A DNA stretch of 64,000 bases from Pseudodesulfovibrio sp. zrk46 (GTDB lineage Bacteria > Desulfobacterota > Desulfovibrionia > Desulfovibrionales > Desulfovibrionaceae), in NCBI RefSeq assembly GCF_012516435.1, contig NZ_CP051216.1, forward strand, positions 1,180,001-1,244,000, read 5' to 3'. A program made the translations under genes and the position numbers. Within the stretch, counting starts at the first letter, position 1. Every line of letters begins with the position of its first letter. Below the pieces are notes generated by a model that was given only the letters and a program-made list of their open reading frames with translations, was not told where the DNA came from and made no database searches. This document shows positions 20,848-38,191 of this stretch, piece by piece.

Positions 20848-22260
20848 ATGGATACATCTGACAAGCTCCAGCACATACTCGTCGTGGACGACTCCACCTC
20901 GGTTCGCTACGCCCTCGAAAAGCACCTGACCGAAGCGGGGTTCAAGGTTTCCCTGGCCGTGGACGGTCAGGACGGCCTCAATATCGCTCTGGAAAACGAC
21001 TTCGATCTGGTCATCACGGACATCGACATGCCCAAGATGGACGGCTTCGAACTCTGCTCCAAGCTCAAGGGCGAAGAAAAGACCTCCCATATTCCCATCA
21101 TCGTTCTCTCCTCCCGCGACTCGGATGAGCACGTGGAGCACGGCTTCCGCGTGGGGGCCGACGCCTACCTCGCCAAGGGCGGCAACATTCAGGAGAACAT
21201 CGAGCGCATCAAGGATATCCTGAGCGCACAGAATTTCCTCACCGGCAGTCGCATTCTGGTCGTAGACGACTCTTCCAGCGTCCGCTTGTTCCTCAAGACC
21301 GGACTGATGGAAGAAGGCTTTGTGGTGGAGACCGCCACCAACGGAAAAGAAGCATTCGACATGCTGCCGGACTTCAACCCCAACCTCATCATCTCCGACC
21401 TGATGATGCCGGAGATGGACGGCGGGGAACTCTGCCGTGCCATCAACAAGTCCGAGGTCTACAAGTCCATCCCCGTGATCATCATGTCCACCCTGAGCGA
21501 CAAGCCGGTCATGCGTCGACTCATGCGTGAGGGCGCGGCCACCTATCTGGTCAAGCCCTTCACCATCACCCAGCTTTCCATTGTCATCGAGGAGATATTC
21601 TCTTCCAACTTCCGGCTCATGATGGAAGAAAAAGAGCGGCTGCAGATGGAACACCAGCTCACCCTGGCCGCCATCGCCAGCCTGGTGCAGGCGCTGGAGG
21701 CACGCGACCCCATGACGCGCGGGCACTCCGAGCGCGTGGCCCGCATTGCACAGGGCATCGCCGCCGAACTCGATTTCAAGCCAAGCCAACTGGAGCGTCT
21801 CCTCCTCATTGGCCAGCTCCATGACCTCGGCAAGATCGGCGTGCGCGACGACGTGCTGCTCAAGAAGGCCCGTCTGGAAGAGGACGAGTTCGAGCACATC
21901 AAGGACCACTCCAATGTGGTGGCCGACATCCTGCGGCCCATCAAGAGCCTGCACGACATTCTGGAAGTCACCCACTCCCATCACGAGCGGTGGGACGGCA
22001 ACGGCTACCCCGACGGGCTCAAGGGCGAGGAGATCCCCATCAAGGCACGCATCATTGCCGTGGCCGACGTGTACGAAGCCATCACCTCCGAGCGCCCCTA
22101 CCGCGACTCCATGCCCACCCGTGTGGCCGTGGACATCATCACCGAAGAGCGTGGCAAGCAGCTCTGCCCCACTTGTGTGGACGCCTTCCTCAAATGGTTC
22201 GAGCGCACCGGCGGCCATGTGGATCTGCCCAAGCAGTTCCAACAGGGCGCGACTCACTAG
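20848..22260 (+). CDS. Double-receiver HD-GYP response regulator
   Basis: The likely start is the ATG at 20848 (470 residues); the frame extends 34 codons upstream without support. Two CheY-like receivers come first: phospho-acceptors in VITDIDMPKMDG (about residue 58) and IISDLMMPEMDG (about 180), each with the switch threonine/serine and lysine. After a helical linker comes an HD-GYP phosphodiesterase with LHDLGKIGV and HHERWDGNGYPDG, so it should degrade c-di-GMP under phosphorelay control. No kinase is adjacent. A GC-rich hairpin at 22280-22322 follows the stop. Confidence 0.93.
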   Translation: MDTSDKLQHILVVDDSTSVRYALEKHLTEAGFKVSLAVDGQDGLNIALENDFDLVITDIDMPKMDGFELCSKLKGEEKTSHIPIIVLSSRDSDEHVEHGFRVGADAYLAKGGNIQENIERIKDILSAQNFLTGSRILVVDDSSSVRLFLKTGLMEEGFVVETATNGKEAFDMLPDFNPNLIISDLMMPEMDGGELCRAINKSEVYKSIPVIIMSTLSDKPVMRRLMREGAATYLVKPFTITQLSIVIEEIFSSNFRLMMEEKERLQMEHQLTLAAIASLVQALEARDPMTRGHSERVARIAQGIAAELDFKPSQLERLLLIGQLHDLGKIGVRDDVLLKKARLEEDEFEHIKDHSNVVADILRPIKSLHDILEVTHSHHERWDGNGYPDGLKGEEIPIKARIIAVADVYEAITSERPYRDSMPTRVAVDIITEERGKQLCPTCVDAFLKWFERTGGHVDLPKQFQQGATH

Positions 22261-22279
22261 TCACTTCATTTCACAACAC

Positions 22280-22322
22280 AGAAGCGGCGGCAGGATGCAT
22301 TTCCTGCCGCCGCTTCTCATTT
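22280..22322 (+). terminator. Probable terminator after the HD-GYP regulator
   Basis: A 14-bp stem (GAAGCGGCGGCAGG with its complement) with an 8-nt loop. The trailing sequence TCATTTG is only weakly T-rich. Confidence 0.65.
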
Positions 22323-22350
22323 GCACTTTGTGCACACCTATTGCCCCGCA

Positions 22351-22400
22351 TTGTGCAATGTTGCGCAACCATTTTGTGCAAACTTGTGCAAATTGCACAA
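22351..22400. promoter_or_regulatory. Array of five TTGYGCAA octamers
   Basis: TTGTGCAA occurs at 22351, 22374 and 22384, the palindrome TTGCGCAA at 22361, and the inverse TTGCACAA at 22393. Start-to-start spacings are 10, 13, 10 and 9 bp, close to a helical turn. The array sits 66-115 bp upstream of a sigma-54 promoter, the usual place for an enhancer-binding activator. A lone octamer recurs at 39836. Confidence 0.6.
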
Positions 22401-22465
22401 CGGTTGAACTTGCAACTTTTTATCGTGTTTTTATTAACATACTAAAATAAAACACTTTCATACTT

Positions 22466-22481
22466 TGGCACGGCACATGCT
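22466..22481 (+). promoter_or_regulatory. Sigma-54 (RpoN) promoter
   Basis: TGGCACGGCACATGCT fits the -24/-12 consensus TGGCACG-N4-TTGC with one change (ATGC). The GG and GC doublets are exactly 10 nt apart. The predicted start is about 22491-22493. No coding gene with a ribosome binding site begins directly downstream. Confidence 0.75.
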
Positions 22482-22491
22482 TTAAGCCAAA

Positions 22492-22826
22492 CATGCACGA
22501 TGCAGTCACTGTCACTCTCATCATCCTGATCGCCGCGTGGTTGCGGCGGTCCCTCCTCACCGACCTGGACGTCCACCCCGACGTCCGGGCAGGTGGAGAG
22601 AGCAAAGCCTCAACGACCCTGGCACTGGCACCTATCCGGGTGGATCGCCCCCATCCCGCCCGATACGCCAACCGCAAAGGTTAGGGTCTACCAATATACA
22701 AACCATACCTCCCCTTAAAAAGCAGAATCAAAACCTCAAACCCCTCCTTAAAAAAACAGTTAGACAGACCTCAAACCCCCAAAACAGCAAGGCCGCGAAA
22801 GCGGCCTTCGCTGTTTTGGGGGTTTG
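22492..22826 (+). ncRNA. Candidate sigma-54-driven structured RNA
   Basis: The about 335-nt stretch starts at the predicted sigma-54 start point and ends at a very long hairpin. It contains a 10-bp stem (CCTGGACGTC with GACGTCCGGG, 22567-22592) and smaller inverted repeats such as AACC/AGGT(T) near 22670-22682. The only reading frame (63 codons) starts at the predicted first transcribed base, leaving no room for a ribosome binding site. It is therefore better read as a noncoding RNA or a long leader than as a gene. The chemoreceptor gene begins 130 bp further on. It matches no RNA family that I recognise. Confidence 0.45.
22772..22826. terminator. Long near-perfect hairpin
   Basis: A 17-bp outer stem (CAAACCCCCAAAACAGC with its complement), a small bulge and an inner GGCCGC/GCGGCC stem closed by GAAA. 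The tail is only mildly T-rich, so it may act as a terminator or as an RNA-stabilising end. Confidence 0.6.
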
Positions 22827-22956
22827 TAATTCTGTAACGTGACTTCATGAAATCACATTATCTCTTCTCTAGCGGAGCAGATATAATACGATAAGGGAAA
22901 AAAGTGTGCTACAAGGAACGTATCGTCACAACTGTATTTCACGAAGAGAGGGTCCC

Positions 22957-24975
22957 ATGGGAATTAAATGGAAACTGCTTTTGATGGTGGGACTGCCAGT
23001 CGCGGCAATCATCATCATTTTCATCGTAGGTCTTTCGAGCTTTTATGTGATCGACTCGGACATGGCGTCCGTCAACTCACTTCATCAGGACCGGGCGACA
23101 ATGATCGACGCAGACCGCGACGCCTATCAGGCGCAGGTGGCTGTGATGAAAGCGCTTGAAGCCCGAACTCCCGATGATCTCAAGAAATCAAAGGGATCCA
23201 GTGATGAAAATACCCAGCAGACATGGGACAGGATCACCGGACCGGCCAAGAACTTTACTCCTGACATGGCCACTGCATTCGATGGCTTCAAAAATGGCTT
23301 TGAAGCGTGGAAGAGCGACAACAACAAGATCTTGTCTCTTTCCGCTCAGACCCTGGAGGCCAACCTTGCCCGCGATCAGGCGGAGAAAAATGCCCTCGCC
23401 TCATTCGACGCCATGCGCGACGTCATCGACCAGCTTGGCGCCATGATCGATGAACAGTTGAAGGACCCGTACCTTGGACAGGAGCGACGGCTGCAACTGG
23501 AGAGCGCTCTCTCCCAAACCCTTAATGCCGACCGCGACGCCTATCAGGCATATGTGGCTCAGCTCCTCATCACTCGCGCCACTGACGCCGCCACAGCCAA
23601 CAAGCTGGCCGAATCATTCACGGAAAACGTGGGGCAAACCACACAACGCGTGAATGGCGGCGCCGATGCCGTCGGTTCCCGGGCTGCGGACCTGAAGGAA
23701 CAATTCAACAAGCAATTCACTGCCTGGGAAGCCCAAAGCAGAATGGCCGTTGAACTCACCCTCTCGAATATCGACAAGAATCTGGAAAAGATCGCCCTGC
23801 TGCAAACAAGTGACAAAGACTTCTCTGCCATGCGCGACAGTATCGACAAGCTGGGCGAGAAAGAAATGGGCCGGGTTGAAGCCGACCTTCAGAACCTCGA
23901 TGAAGTCATCAGTGGAACCATCCTCATTTATATCCTTGTGGCCACTGCCTTTGTCATCCTCTCGGTAATTGTGACCTTGATTGTGGCCTCCCGCATTGCA
24001 AGTGCCATGAAGCAAAGCGCCGATGTGGCTACAGCCCTTTCCGAGGGTGACTTCACCGTGAGCCTGCAAGTGAACCGCAACGATGAAATCGGCCAACTTG
24101 CCAGCGCATTCACCAATATGATCGAACGCCTCCGCGACATCGTTCATGACGTGCAGGATGCGACCGGCACAGTGGCGTCTAGCAGTGAAGAGCTGGCCAG
24201 TTCTTCCGAAGCGCTGAGCCAGGGAGCCACGGAACAATCCTCCGCTGTTGAGGAGGTTTCGGCCTCAATGGAAGAGATGGCAGCGAGCATCAGCCAGAAC
24301 AGCGAAAGTTCCGGCGAGACCGAAACCATTGCCCGCACCACTGCGGCTGAAGCCAAAAAGGGCGGCGAAGCCGTGAGACAAACGGTGACATCCATGTCTC
24401 TGATTGCCGAAAAAATCTCCATCATCGAAGAGATCGCACGGCAGACCAACCTCCTCGCCCTCAACGCAGCCATCGAGGCCGCACGCGCTGGCGAGCACGG
24501 CAAGGGCTTTGCCGTTGTCGCCGCAGAGGTTCGCAAACTGGCCGAGAAATCCGGTCAGGCAGCCAATGAGATCAGTGAACTGTCCACGGAATCCGTCGAG
24601 GTGGCCACACGGGCCGGGCAGATGCTCGACTCCATCGTCCCCAATATCGAGAAAACGGCCGAACGGATAATGGAGATAGCTGCCGCCAGCAACGAGCAGA
24701 ACGCGGGCGCAAAAGAGGTCAACACCGCGCTGCAACAGATGGACAGTGTGGTTCAGGCCAATGCCGGTTCATCCGAAGAGATCGCCTCCACCGCAGAACA
24801 GCTGTCCTCGCAGGCCATGCAGCTTGAAGAGACCATGTCCTTCTTCAAGTTGGGACAAATCACCAAGACAAGTTCCAGCAAGGTCGTCAACACGCCGCCC
24901 AAGGCGCTCGCACAGGCAGCACCTGACAATGGTGTTGCAATCGATATGGGCGATGATAGCTTTGAGAGATTCTAG
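22957..24975 (+). CDS. Methyl-accepting chemotaxis protein with duplicated helical sensor
   Basis: The ATG at 22957 has AGAGGG upstream; the product has 672 residues. A first membrane helix (about 6-30) precedes a large all-helical periplasmic domain that looks duplicated: [11 protein letters not shown] at about 51 recurs as [11 protein letters not shown] at about 191, and [13 protein letters not shown] recurs as [13 protein letters not shown]. The second helix is at about 325-350, then HAMP, then the signalling domain with the hairpin tip [22 protein letters not shown]. The last five residues, SFERF, resemble the aromatic CheR/CheB-docking pentapeptide. It senses an unknown small molecule and steers the flagellar motor. 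Confidence 0.93.
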
Positions 24976-36769: not shown

Positions 36770-38191
36770 CTAATCCGTTTGAATCTTGTATGCCTTGAGC
36801 TTACGGTACAGGGAGCTGCGCTCCAGGCCAACGGCCTTGGCGAGCTGGGAGATGTTGCCATCGCATTCCTTGAGTTTGGCCTCGAGGAACTTGGCCTCGA
36901 AATCGGCACGAGCCTGCTTGAGGTCCGTGGGCCCATCGGCGATGAGGGTGCTGAATGGACAGGTCTCGTCGCCCACAGGAGTATCACCAGTGGCCGGTGC
37001 AGCGGGTCGGGCAACCGGTTTGACGGCCTGAAACTCGGGCGGGAGTTTGTCCGGGGTGACGGTATCGCCCGCGTACATAATGAACATGCGCTCCACGAAA
37101 TTCTTGAGCTCACGGACGTTGCCGGGCCACGGGTAGGCCTGCAGTATGTCGATGGCGTCAGCATCGAACTTGATGGGCTTGAAACCGTGCTGACGGAGAA
37201 GCGTATCCATGAATGCGTTGATGAGCAGCGGTATGTCGCCGATGCGTTCGCGCAGAGGCGGCAGCTCCAGCGGGAAGACCTTGAGTCTATAGTAGAGGTC
37301 TTCACGGAAATTTCCGGCCTCGATCTCGCTGAGGAGATTTTTGTTGGTGGCCGCGATAACGCGCACGTCGACATTGATGGTCTTGCGACCGCCCACATGC
37401 TCGAACGCCTGCTCCTGCAGGATGCGGAGAATCTTGGCCTGTGTCTTGAGGCTCATGTCGCCGATCTCATCGAGGAACAGGATACCGCCGTTGGCCAGCT
37501 CGAATTTGCCTTCCTGCGCCTTGTCCGCACCGGTGAAGGCTCCCTTCTCGTGACCGAACAGCTCGGACTCGATGAGTTCTTCGGGGATGGCGGCGCAGTT
37601 CACGGCCACCAGCGGCTTGTCGCTGCGGCCTGACTGGTGGTGAATGGAGCGGGCCACAATCTCCTTACCCGTGCCGTTCTCGCCGGTGATGAGCACCCAT
37701 GAGTCAGTGGGAGCCACGCGGGAGATGACGTCGTTGAGAGTCTTGATGGGTTCGGATTCGCCGGTCAGGCTGACAGGCTGTTCGGAATTGATGCGGGTCT
37801 TGAGGGCGATGTTCTCCTGACGCAGGCGTGAAAACTCCAAGCCGTTGCGGGTGGCGATGACCACCTTCTCAAGGGACAGGGGCTTTTCAATGAAGTCAAA
37901 GGCACCCATCTTGAGCGCCTTGACCGCTGTCTCAATGGTGCCGTGGCCCGAGATCATGATCACGGGCAACCCTTTGTGCTTTTCAACGATATTCTCAAGC
38001 ACCTCGAGGCCATCCATACCGGGCAGCCAGATGTCGAGGAACACCATATCCGGGATGTCGGTACCGAGGAGTTCCAGCCCTTCTTCGCCGGATTCCGCCT
38101 CAATAACCTCGTGCCCTTCGTCCTCAAGGATGCCGCGTAAGGAAAAACGGATGCCTTCTTCGTCGTCGATGATCAGAATTTGACCGCTCAT
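36770..38191 (-). CDS. Sigma-54-dependent response regulator (NtrX/NtrC family)
   Basis: The 473-residue activator has a receiver (phospho-acceptor in DMVFLDIWLPGMDG, about D54) and an AAA+ domain with Walker A GENGTGKE (about 169-176), the sigma-54-contact loop GAFTGAD (about 221) and Walker B ILFLDEIGDM. A Fis-type helix-turn-helix lies at the end (NISQLAKAVGLERSSLYRKLKAY). It opens sigma-54 promoters on phosphorylation. The NtrY-type kinase at 29966 is its probable partner. The sigma-54 promoter at 22466 is one possible target. The architecture is closer to NtrX than NtrC, but that is a judgement. Confidence 0.93.
   Translation of the reverse strand: MSGQILIIDDEEGIRFSLRGILEDEGHEVIEAESGEEGLELLGTDIPDMVFLDIWLPGMDGLEVLENIVEKHKGLPVIMISGHGTIETAVKALKMGAFDFIEKPLSLEKVVIATRNGLEFSRLRQENIALKTRINSEQPVSLTGESEPIKTLNDVISRVAPTDSWVLITGENGTGKEIVARSIHHQSGRSDKPLVAVNCAAIPEELIESELFGHEKGAFTGADKAQEGKFELANGGILFLDEIGDMSLKTQAKILRILQEQAFEHVGGRKTINVDVRVIAATNKNLLSEIEAGNFREDLYYRLKVFPLELPPLRERIGDIPLLINAFMDTLLRQHGFKPIKFDADAIDILQAYPWPGNVRELKNFVERMFIMYAGDTVTPDKLPPEFQAVKPVARPAAPATGDTPVGDETCPFSTLIADGPTDLKQARADFEAKFLEAKLKECDGNISQLAKAVGLERSSLYRKLKAYKIQTD

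Follow-up and report, generated by a model that had tools for sequence, protein, structure and literature searches.

A self-contained and overlooked sigma-54 gene unit is almost certainly conserved in the Pseudodesulfovibrio group; it consists of upstream sites, a sigma-54 box, an ORF of 62–68 codons, a folded RNA, a CCTCC-rich 3' UTR and a terminator. Promoter, sites, coding, fold and terminator are evident from sequence comparison between relatives. The reading moderately favoured here is that of a ZraR-like, sigma-54-driven leaderless RNA for a single-helix protein, which would also be selected as RNA and take part in a stress response. Positions refer to the window (the whole 64-kb stretch of DNA analysed), and features lie on its forward strand unless otherwise stated. 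The original prediction was that of an activator-controlled sigma-54 small RNA without a gene; the RNA stood (about 330 nt, structured and terminated; promoter, sites, fold and terminator conserved), the missing gene did not.

DNA search with 22440–22840 as query gave matches in 30 of 60 genomes: the window genome, 28 of the 35 others of the same genus and one outside. By this search the unit was present in 29 of the 36 genomes of the genus, and in 30 when the divergent copy in G015 is counted. Among 297 genomes of the order, a profile of the small protein found matches in 30, namely 28 of the same genus (the window genome included) and two weak cases elsewhere; at least five same-genus genomes were without a match to it. 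No unit was found in G014, G017 and G031, and the Rfam scan of the window gave 0 matches at gathering score. Outside the genus, the DNA match (G051) was 41 nt long, and the weak protein matches were those of G118 (E 0.007) and G230 (E 0.002).

Variant copies were collected as well. Tandem paralogues in G003 and G016 kept the box, the spacing, the hydrophobic start and CCTCC; in these and in divergent G015 the promoter-to-ATG distance was read as unchanged, and a frame of similar length and start was kept. The copy in G032 was degenerate (in-frame stop). These tandem and degenerate copies are those of L120 (around 8425), L021 and L153. G020 and G023, not matched by the protein profile, had upstream sites and box, then a leader (about 18 nt) ahead of an ORF that is longer and shares TSPHP in its tail; profile similarity was not significant. 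G009 had the sigma-54 box, upstream sites and two CACCTCCTC motifs with no clear ORF. The divergent versions in G020, G023 and G009 are loci L313, L297 and L290.

The sigma-54 −24/−12 promoter predicted at 22466 with exact spacing was confirmed (TGGCACGGCACATGC, 22466–22480); a box with its GG and GC at constant distance occupied the equivalent position in all 29 loci. Exact matches to the box numbered 2 in the 64-kb window against 0.74 expected, so the box alone is not striking; it is convincing because it is conserved at one place in relatives. Conservation set in at the promoter: of the 28 DNA matches within the genus, 24 had their first base at 22457–22466 (query base 18–27), at the box or at most 9 bases before it. 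The predicted +1, placed on the basis of the box position 12 nt downstream of the C in the −12 GC, is 22492, and a 63-codon ORF (22493–22684) starts one base later. Relative to the predicted transcript, the ATG was at +1 in 1, at +2 in 22 and at +3 in 6 of the 29 loci. From these positions we infer a likely leaderless mRNA, with AUG within 1–2 nt of the transcript start. Such a start would not be universal, because the version in G020 and G023 has its leader of about 18 nt.

It had been stated that no reading frame after the predicted start was supported. This was not upheld: counterparts of 22493–22684 were open in 29 of 29 loci (62–68 codons) and the frame scored as coding. The coding test was BLOSUM-based (150 column shuffles; 28 sequences; 61 of 71 codon columns, gapless; start codon excluded); z was 4.93 in frame 0 and at most 1.66 in the other five frames. 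Row set A1 comprised 27 of 29 proteins (L011, a duplicate of L010, and L029 absent); A2 and the coding test comprised 28 of 29 (L011 omitted). By part, z was only 2.0 for codons 2–33 and 4.2 for the later codons; within codons 2–12 the synonymous fraction was 0.51, reached by 11 of 300 shuffles, and Thr6 was invariant in 28 sequences, encoded by all four ACN codons. The 63-codon frame is thus, on alignment evidence, very probably coding. That the unit is a purely non-coding sigma-54-dependent regulatory RNA with an incidental frame is very improbable: strong conservation of the fold (below), the weak codon signal over the first 33 codons and the G009 version without a clear ORF speak for it, and against it stand the frame open in every locus at 62–68 codons, the z of the later codons, Thr6 kept with all four third bases, and the frames of the tandem paralogues and of G015.

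The AlphaFold2 model of the protein was poor overall (mean pLDDT 63.5) and had one hydrophobic helix at residues 4–22 (about 19 residues, in blocks at pLDDT 84), the rest being disordered; the tail after the helix is basic. Scanning of 27 proteins gave no convincing Pfam or NCBIfam family: four Pfam and two NCBIfam families were each hit by a single member (best E 0.011 and 0.004, respectively). DUF1127 was absent from the Pfam matches of these 27 proteins, and the copy in the window was without any Pfam match.

The consensus fold contained two hairpins within the ORF and the terminator. Hairpin H1 (22528–22551) pairs 22528–22536 with 22543–22551; it answers to the short stem predicted earlier and has 9 pairs in the family alignment (98.0% of cells paired; changes on both sides in 5 of 9 pairs). 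Hairpin H2 (22561–22592) pairs 22564–22573 with 22580–22589, with an outlying pair 22561–22592 (99.0% of cells; changes on both sides in 6 of 11 pairs). A weaker hairpin H3 (22636–22663; 77.7% of cells paired; changes on both sides in 6 of 7 pairs), with the C-rich loop CCCCCATC, was missing from the consensus fold and was added by hand from single-sequence folds. The 55-nt hairpin predicted to end at 22826 was found at 22772–22826, with an 89% match to its own reverse complement and a terminator-like core at 22789–22808; the core common to relatives is 22786–22811 (10 pairs, 98.2% of cells paired), and the long outer arms are peculiar to the copy of the window genome.

With H3 included, 94.8% of 1117 cells were paired and 21 of 40 pairs had changes on both sides; neither figure was attained in any of 500 shuffles. 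Sliding of the partner by 1–3 columns left 33–48% of cells paired; the consensus structure was derived from the same sequences and is therefore favoured over the slid versions, so that more weight falls on the changes on both sides. The fold is, with good confidence, under selection, as far as alignments can tell. Conservation of structure across orthologous regions had been expected, with codon-like conservation of the 63-codon frame set against it as the alternative; both were found, in the same RNA.

CCTCC motifs accompany the fold. The copy within the ORF (22552–22556, codons 20–22) is nearly fixed at third codon positions: codon 21 was CTC in 28 of 28 sequences, and codon 22 likewise in 27 of 28. 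Two copies lie in the 3' UTR, at 22708–22712 within the conserved block ACCATACCTCC and at 22743–22747. Over all loci, 56 copies of CCTCC were counted in the 3' UTR against 15.4 expected from dinucleotide shuffles (3.6-fold enrichment); they were present in 29 of 29 loci (12.4 expected), with a mean predicted unpaired probability of 0.84. We take these CCTCC/CCUCC motifs to resemble the 16S anti-Shine-Dalgarno sequence. A long complement of the conserved 3' block (20 bases, at most 3 mismatches) was found in the window genome at the locus itself only. An antisense gene, suggested by the RBS- and start-like reverse complement of the 3' block, was considered separately and rejected, no conserved frame following it; this rejection was not exhaustive and was judged mainly on varying lengths and strand scores.

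Whether the RNA acts on other mRNAs is a matter of speculation, and action in trans is regarded as possible, on the doubtful side. A gene for the small protein only, in which fold and CCTCC serve their own mRNA (stability, translation control, termination) with no regulation in trans, is somewhat unlikely. It would agree with the clear coding signal, the predicted single-helix peptide, in-ORF hairpins H1 and H2 that could pace translation, and the missing long complement elsewhere; it sits poorly with the enrichment of predicted unpaired CCTCC in the untranslated part, with the near-fixation of the in-ORF copy at third codon positions, and with G009, where promoter, upstream sites and CACCTCCTC occur without a clear ORF. 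A fuller dual-function proposal is likewise doubtful: a sigma-54/Zra-type envelope-stress response of sulfate reducers would possess a dual-function RNA, a leaderless mRNA for a single-helix membrane peptide in which the coding part also serves as conserved fold; the 3' end would mimic the anti-Shine-Dalgarno sequence and repress mRNAs of envelope proteins, and the two functions would compete on one molecule.

Five octamers predicted at 22351–22400 were recovered as TTGYRCAA (starts 22351, 22361, 22374, 22384 and 22393) and are regarded as putative upstream activator sites. The 64-kb window contained 9 such octamers against 4.66 expected, 5 of the 9 within 50 bp; only the clustering is unusual. 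Tandem TTGYRCAA pairs occurred at a single other place in the 4.08 Mb genome. This other pair (L101, G000:C1:2021783-2021822) is of the TTGTACAA type, and a search for a sigma-54-like box up to 600 bases away from it was negative. Of the 28 loci with sufficient DNA upstream, 26 had at least one octamer (L015 was left out of the site counts, its upstream DNA being too short); L021 and L023 had no exact octamer. Clusters in relatives lay about 103, 80 and 61 bases ahead of the box. Between octamers and promoter, an inverted repeat GTTG-N6-CAAC (22403–22416) was observed; GTTG-N5..7-CAAC was present 80–20 bases ahead of the box in 21 of 29 loci and is possibly a site for a second protein.

Search of 36 genomes with the pattern TGTGCA-N3..15-TTGCACA gave 91 matches (reversed-pattern control: 15), of which 59 by hand count, some of them counted on both strands, were at the locus of the unit or its variants in 28 genomes. 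One of two other pattern sites in the window genome was located, with a sigma-54-like box, ahead of a ZraP-like gene; the operon encodes a ZraP-like protein, a DUF4405 protein, a kinase and a sigma-54 response regulator (domains Metal_resist; DUF4405; HisKA/HATPase; Response_reg-Sigma54_activat-HTH_8). The regulator gene lies at G000:C1 648024-649476. In NCBIfam the kinase matched AtoS best, and the regulator matched AtoC best and NtrC second, ZraS and ZraR coming next; equivalog cut-offs for ZraP, ZraS and ZraR were not reached (49.4 of 200, 228.3 of 479 and 419 of 760 bits, respectively). For this reason the operon is called Zra-like only, and, AtoS and AtoC outranking ZraS and ZraR, the label is owed chiefly to the ZraP-like gene and to gene order.

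The Zra-like operon was also fetched from the five genomes in which the standard unit had seemed absent (two carry a divergent unit, one the promoter without a clear ORF, and in two no unit was found); unit and operon were thus seen together in only one standard case. A sigma-54-like box was present in 5 of 5. Half-sites TTGTGCA/TGCACAA were present at the operon promoter in 6 of 6 genomes, several in five and a single one in G031. The ZraP-like gene was undetected in the operon of G017, and the DUF4405 gene in that of G031. The fetched DNA contained 92 distinct sigma-54-like boxes, of which 54 had no half-site within 150 bp, 9 had one (7 unit copies, 2 Zra-like operons) and 29 had at least two (25 unit copies including variants, 4 Zra-like operons). 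All 38 boxes with an upstream half-site thus belonged to the unit (32) or the operon (6); this is an enrichment in a chosen set, because fetching was guided partly by these sites.

Unit and Zra-like operon carry the same half-sites at different spacing and would, on that count, both be placed in a ZraR regulon. Judged from the common half-sites, the Zra-like regulator is probably the activator of the unit. The same gene under another sigma-54 activator is rather unlikely; it is favoured by the 28 strong enhancer-binding proteins of the window genome, by half-sites that differ in order and spacing between the two promoters, and by uninformative profiling of three other regulators, and disfavoured by the finding that, in the fetched DNA, half-sites ahead of sigma-54-like boxes occurred only at unit and operon. 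The profiling was part of a presence/absence comparison of the 28 regulators with the five genomes seeming to lack the unit. For five regulators, none of these genomes had a clear orthologue; three of the five (E 1e-110) were matched in 16, 28 and 2 of 29 genomes, the matches in 28 being mostly of 52–54% identity and taken for paralogues. The comparison was abandoned as a route to the activator, its logic failing because a divergent unit is present in G020 and G023, and the promoter in G009; the half-sites common to unit and operon were used in its place. Another sigma-54 activator domain (37268–37765, minus strand) lies in the window, in a 473-residue response regulator.

The unit is flanked, by domain search, by an HD-domain response-regulator gene upstream and a chemoreceptor gene downstream. 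A terminator-like hairpin of the upstream gene (22280–22317) was read in the sequence and separates this gene from the unit; the terminator scan did not report it. A long leader (5' UTR) regulating the chemoreceptor gene had been offered as the second possibility in the original prediction, and it was consistent with the common strand and the 130 nt from hairpin end to chemoreceptor ATG. It can practically be dismissed, because the unit has its own conserved terminator in between, 8 of 8 chemoreceptor orthologues were without the unit, and downstream neighbours differ among relatives. Within 1.5 kb upstream of the eight orthologues neither a sigma-54-like box (0 of 8) nor a match to the unit better than E 0.1 (blastn, tblastn) was found, and the ORF group of the chemoreceptor was met in 0 of 23 other neighbourhoods within 5.5 kb. 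The next gene downstream was histidine-kinase-like, by eye, in at least 11 of 24 neighbourhoods, at a distance of 290–420 nt. These neighbours form one family (L004, L007–L012, L014, L018, L022 and L024). A TATAAT hexamer was seen at 22882–22887, about 70 nt ahead of the chemoreceptor start; a consensus scan of 22200–23000 gave no sigma-70-type promoter.

The favoured reading, a ZraR-like, sigma-54-driven leaderless RNA, would operate as follows. A ZraR-like enhancer-binding response regulator would bind the TTGTGCA/TGCACAA half-sites, and would probably activate its own operon (ZraP-like protein, DUF4405 protein, kinase, regulator) too; sigma-54 polymerase would then start at about 22492. The resulting RNA of about 330 nt, with its AUG within 1–2 nt of the start, would be translated without a leader into the 63-residue protein. 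It would also be selected as RNA, through the two in-ORF hairpins, the C-rich loop, the mostly unpaired CCUCC 3' UTR and the terminator. Its likely use would be in an envelope or metal stress response, the signal being deduced, with the peptide acting at the membrane; speculatively, the entire RNA or its 3' end alone could cover the ribosome-binding sites of target mRNAs.

Titles and abstract openings of the literature searched contained no description of this gene. To our knowledge, three features have not been described in combination: a sigma-54 promoter positioned so that the transcript should start at the AUG, bases conserved both as codons and as fold, and upstream sites that link the gene to one stress operon. 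The unit offers a testable candidate member for an envelope-stress regulon of sulfate reducers, and a natural setting in which to ask how a single transcript could serve leaderless translation as well as regulation by RNA. Sigma-54 regulators are numerous in sulfate reducers, and the processes that many of them control are described as unknown in the part of the source available (PMC4641369).

Among known systems, CcaF1-CcsR (CIN1) of Rhodobacter is, in the available text, a transcript that carries RNA elements as well as a small protein and ends in a Rho-independent terminator, and resembles the unit in its stress-type promoter, small protein, RNA elements and terminator (PMC10253847). The unit differs in its sigma-54 promoter (not RpoHI/RpoHII), in proteins without the DUF1127 of CcaF1 (27 scanned), and in coding and hairpins that overlap and are not side by side. 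The alpha-proteobacterial cuckoo and alpha-r14 (NfeR1) RNAs have, as far as the accessible portion goes, unpaired CCUCCUCCC anti-Shine-Dalgarno motifs, to which the motifs of the unit are similar in type (PMC10746234). In contrast to these, the CCTCC motifs of the unit are shorter and are located in a tail that is mostly unpaired.

Sigma-54-dependent ncRNAs of Desulfovibrio vulgaris Hildenborough are given, in the sections available, as targets of DVU0653, DVU0679, DVU1419 and DVU2359 (PMC4641369, PMC3333781). Compared by description, they are like the unit in having sigma-54 promoters with regulator sites and small transcripts in a related sulfate reducer; unlike the unit, they are called non-coding in these accounts. 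DVU3381 is presumably the counterpart of the Zra-like regulator of the window genome. This envelope-stress regulator is listed only with DVU3382-DVU3381 and DVU3384 in the part of the source at hand, where DVU1419, also under envelope stress, has an ncRNA target (PMC4641369).

The ZraPSR zinc and envelope-stress system is matched by the order of ZraP-like gene, kinase and sigma-54 response regulator and by the sigma-54-like promoter ahead of them. Systems of the ZraPSR type are generally described as autoregulated. The present one differs in an additional DUF4405 membrane protein and, judging from the common sites, would differ in the RNA gene as well. AzuCR and Spot 42 are dual-function sRNAs. 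Sigma-54-dependent GlnZ is described, in the available excerpt, as an mRNA-derived sRNA, one RNA being both coding and regulatory (PMC9731577). Unlike GlnZ, AzuCR and Spot 42, the unit has a predicted leaderless start at its sigma-54 promoter and carries structure inside the coding sequence.
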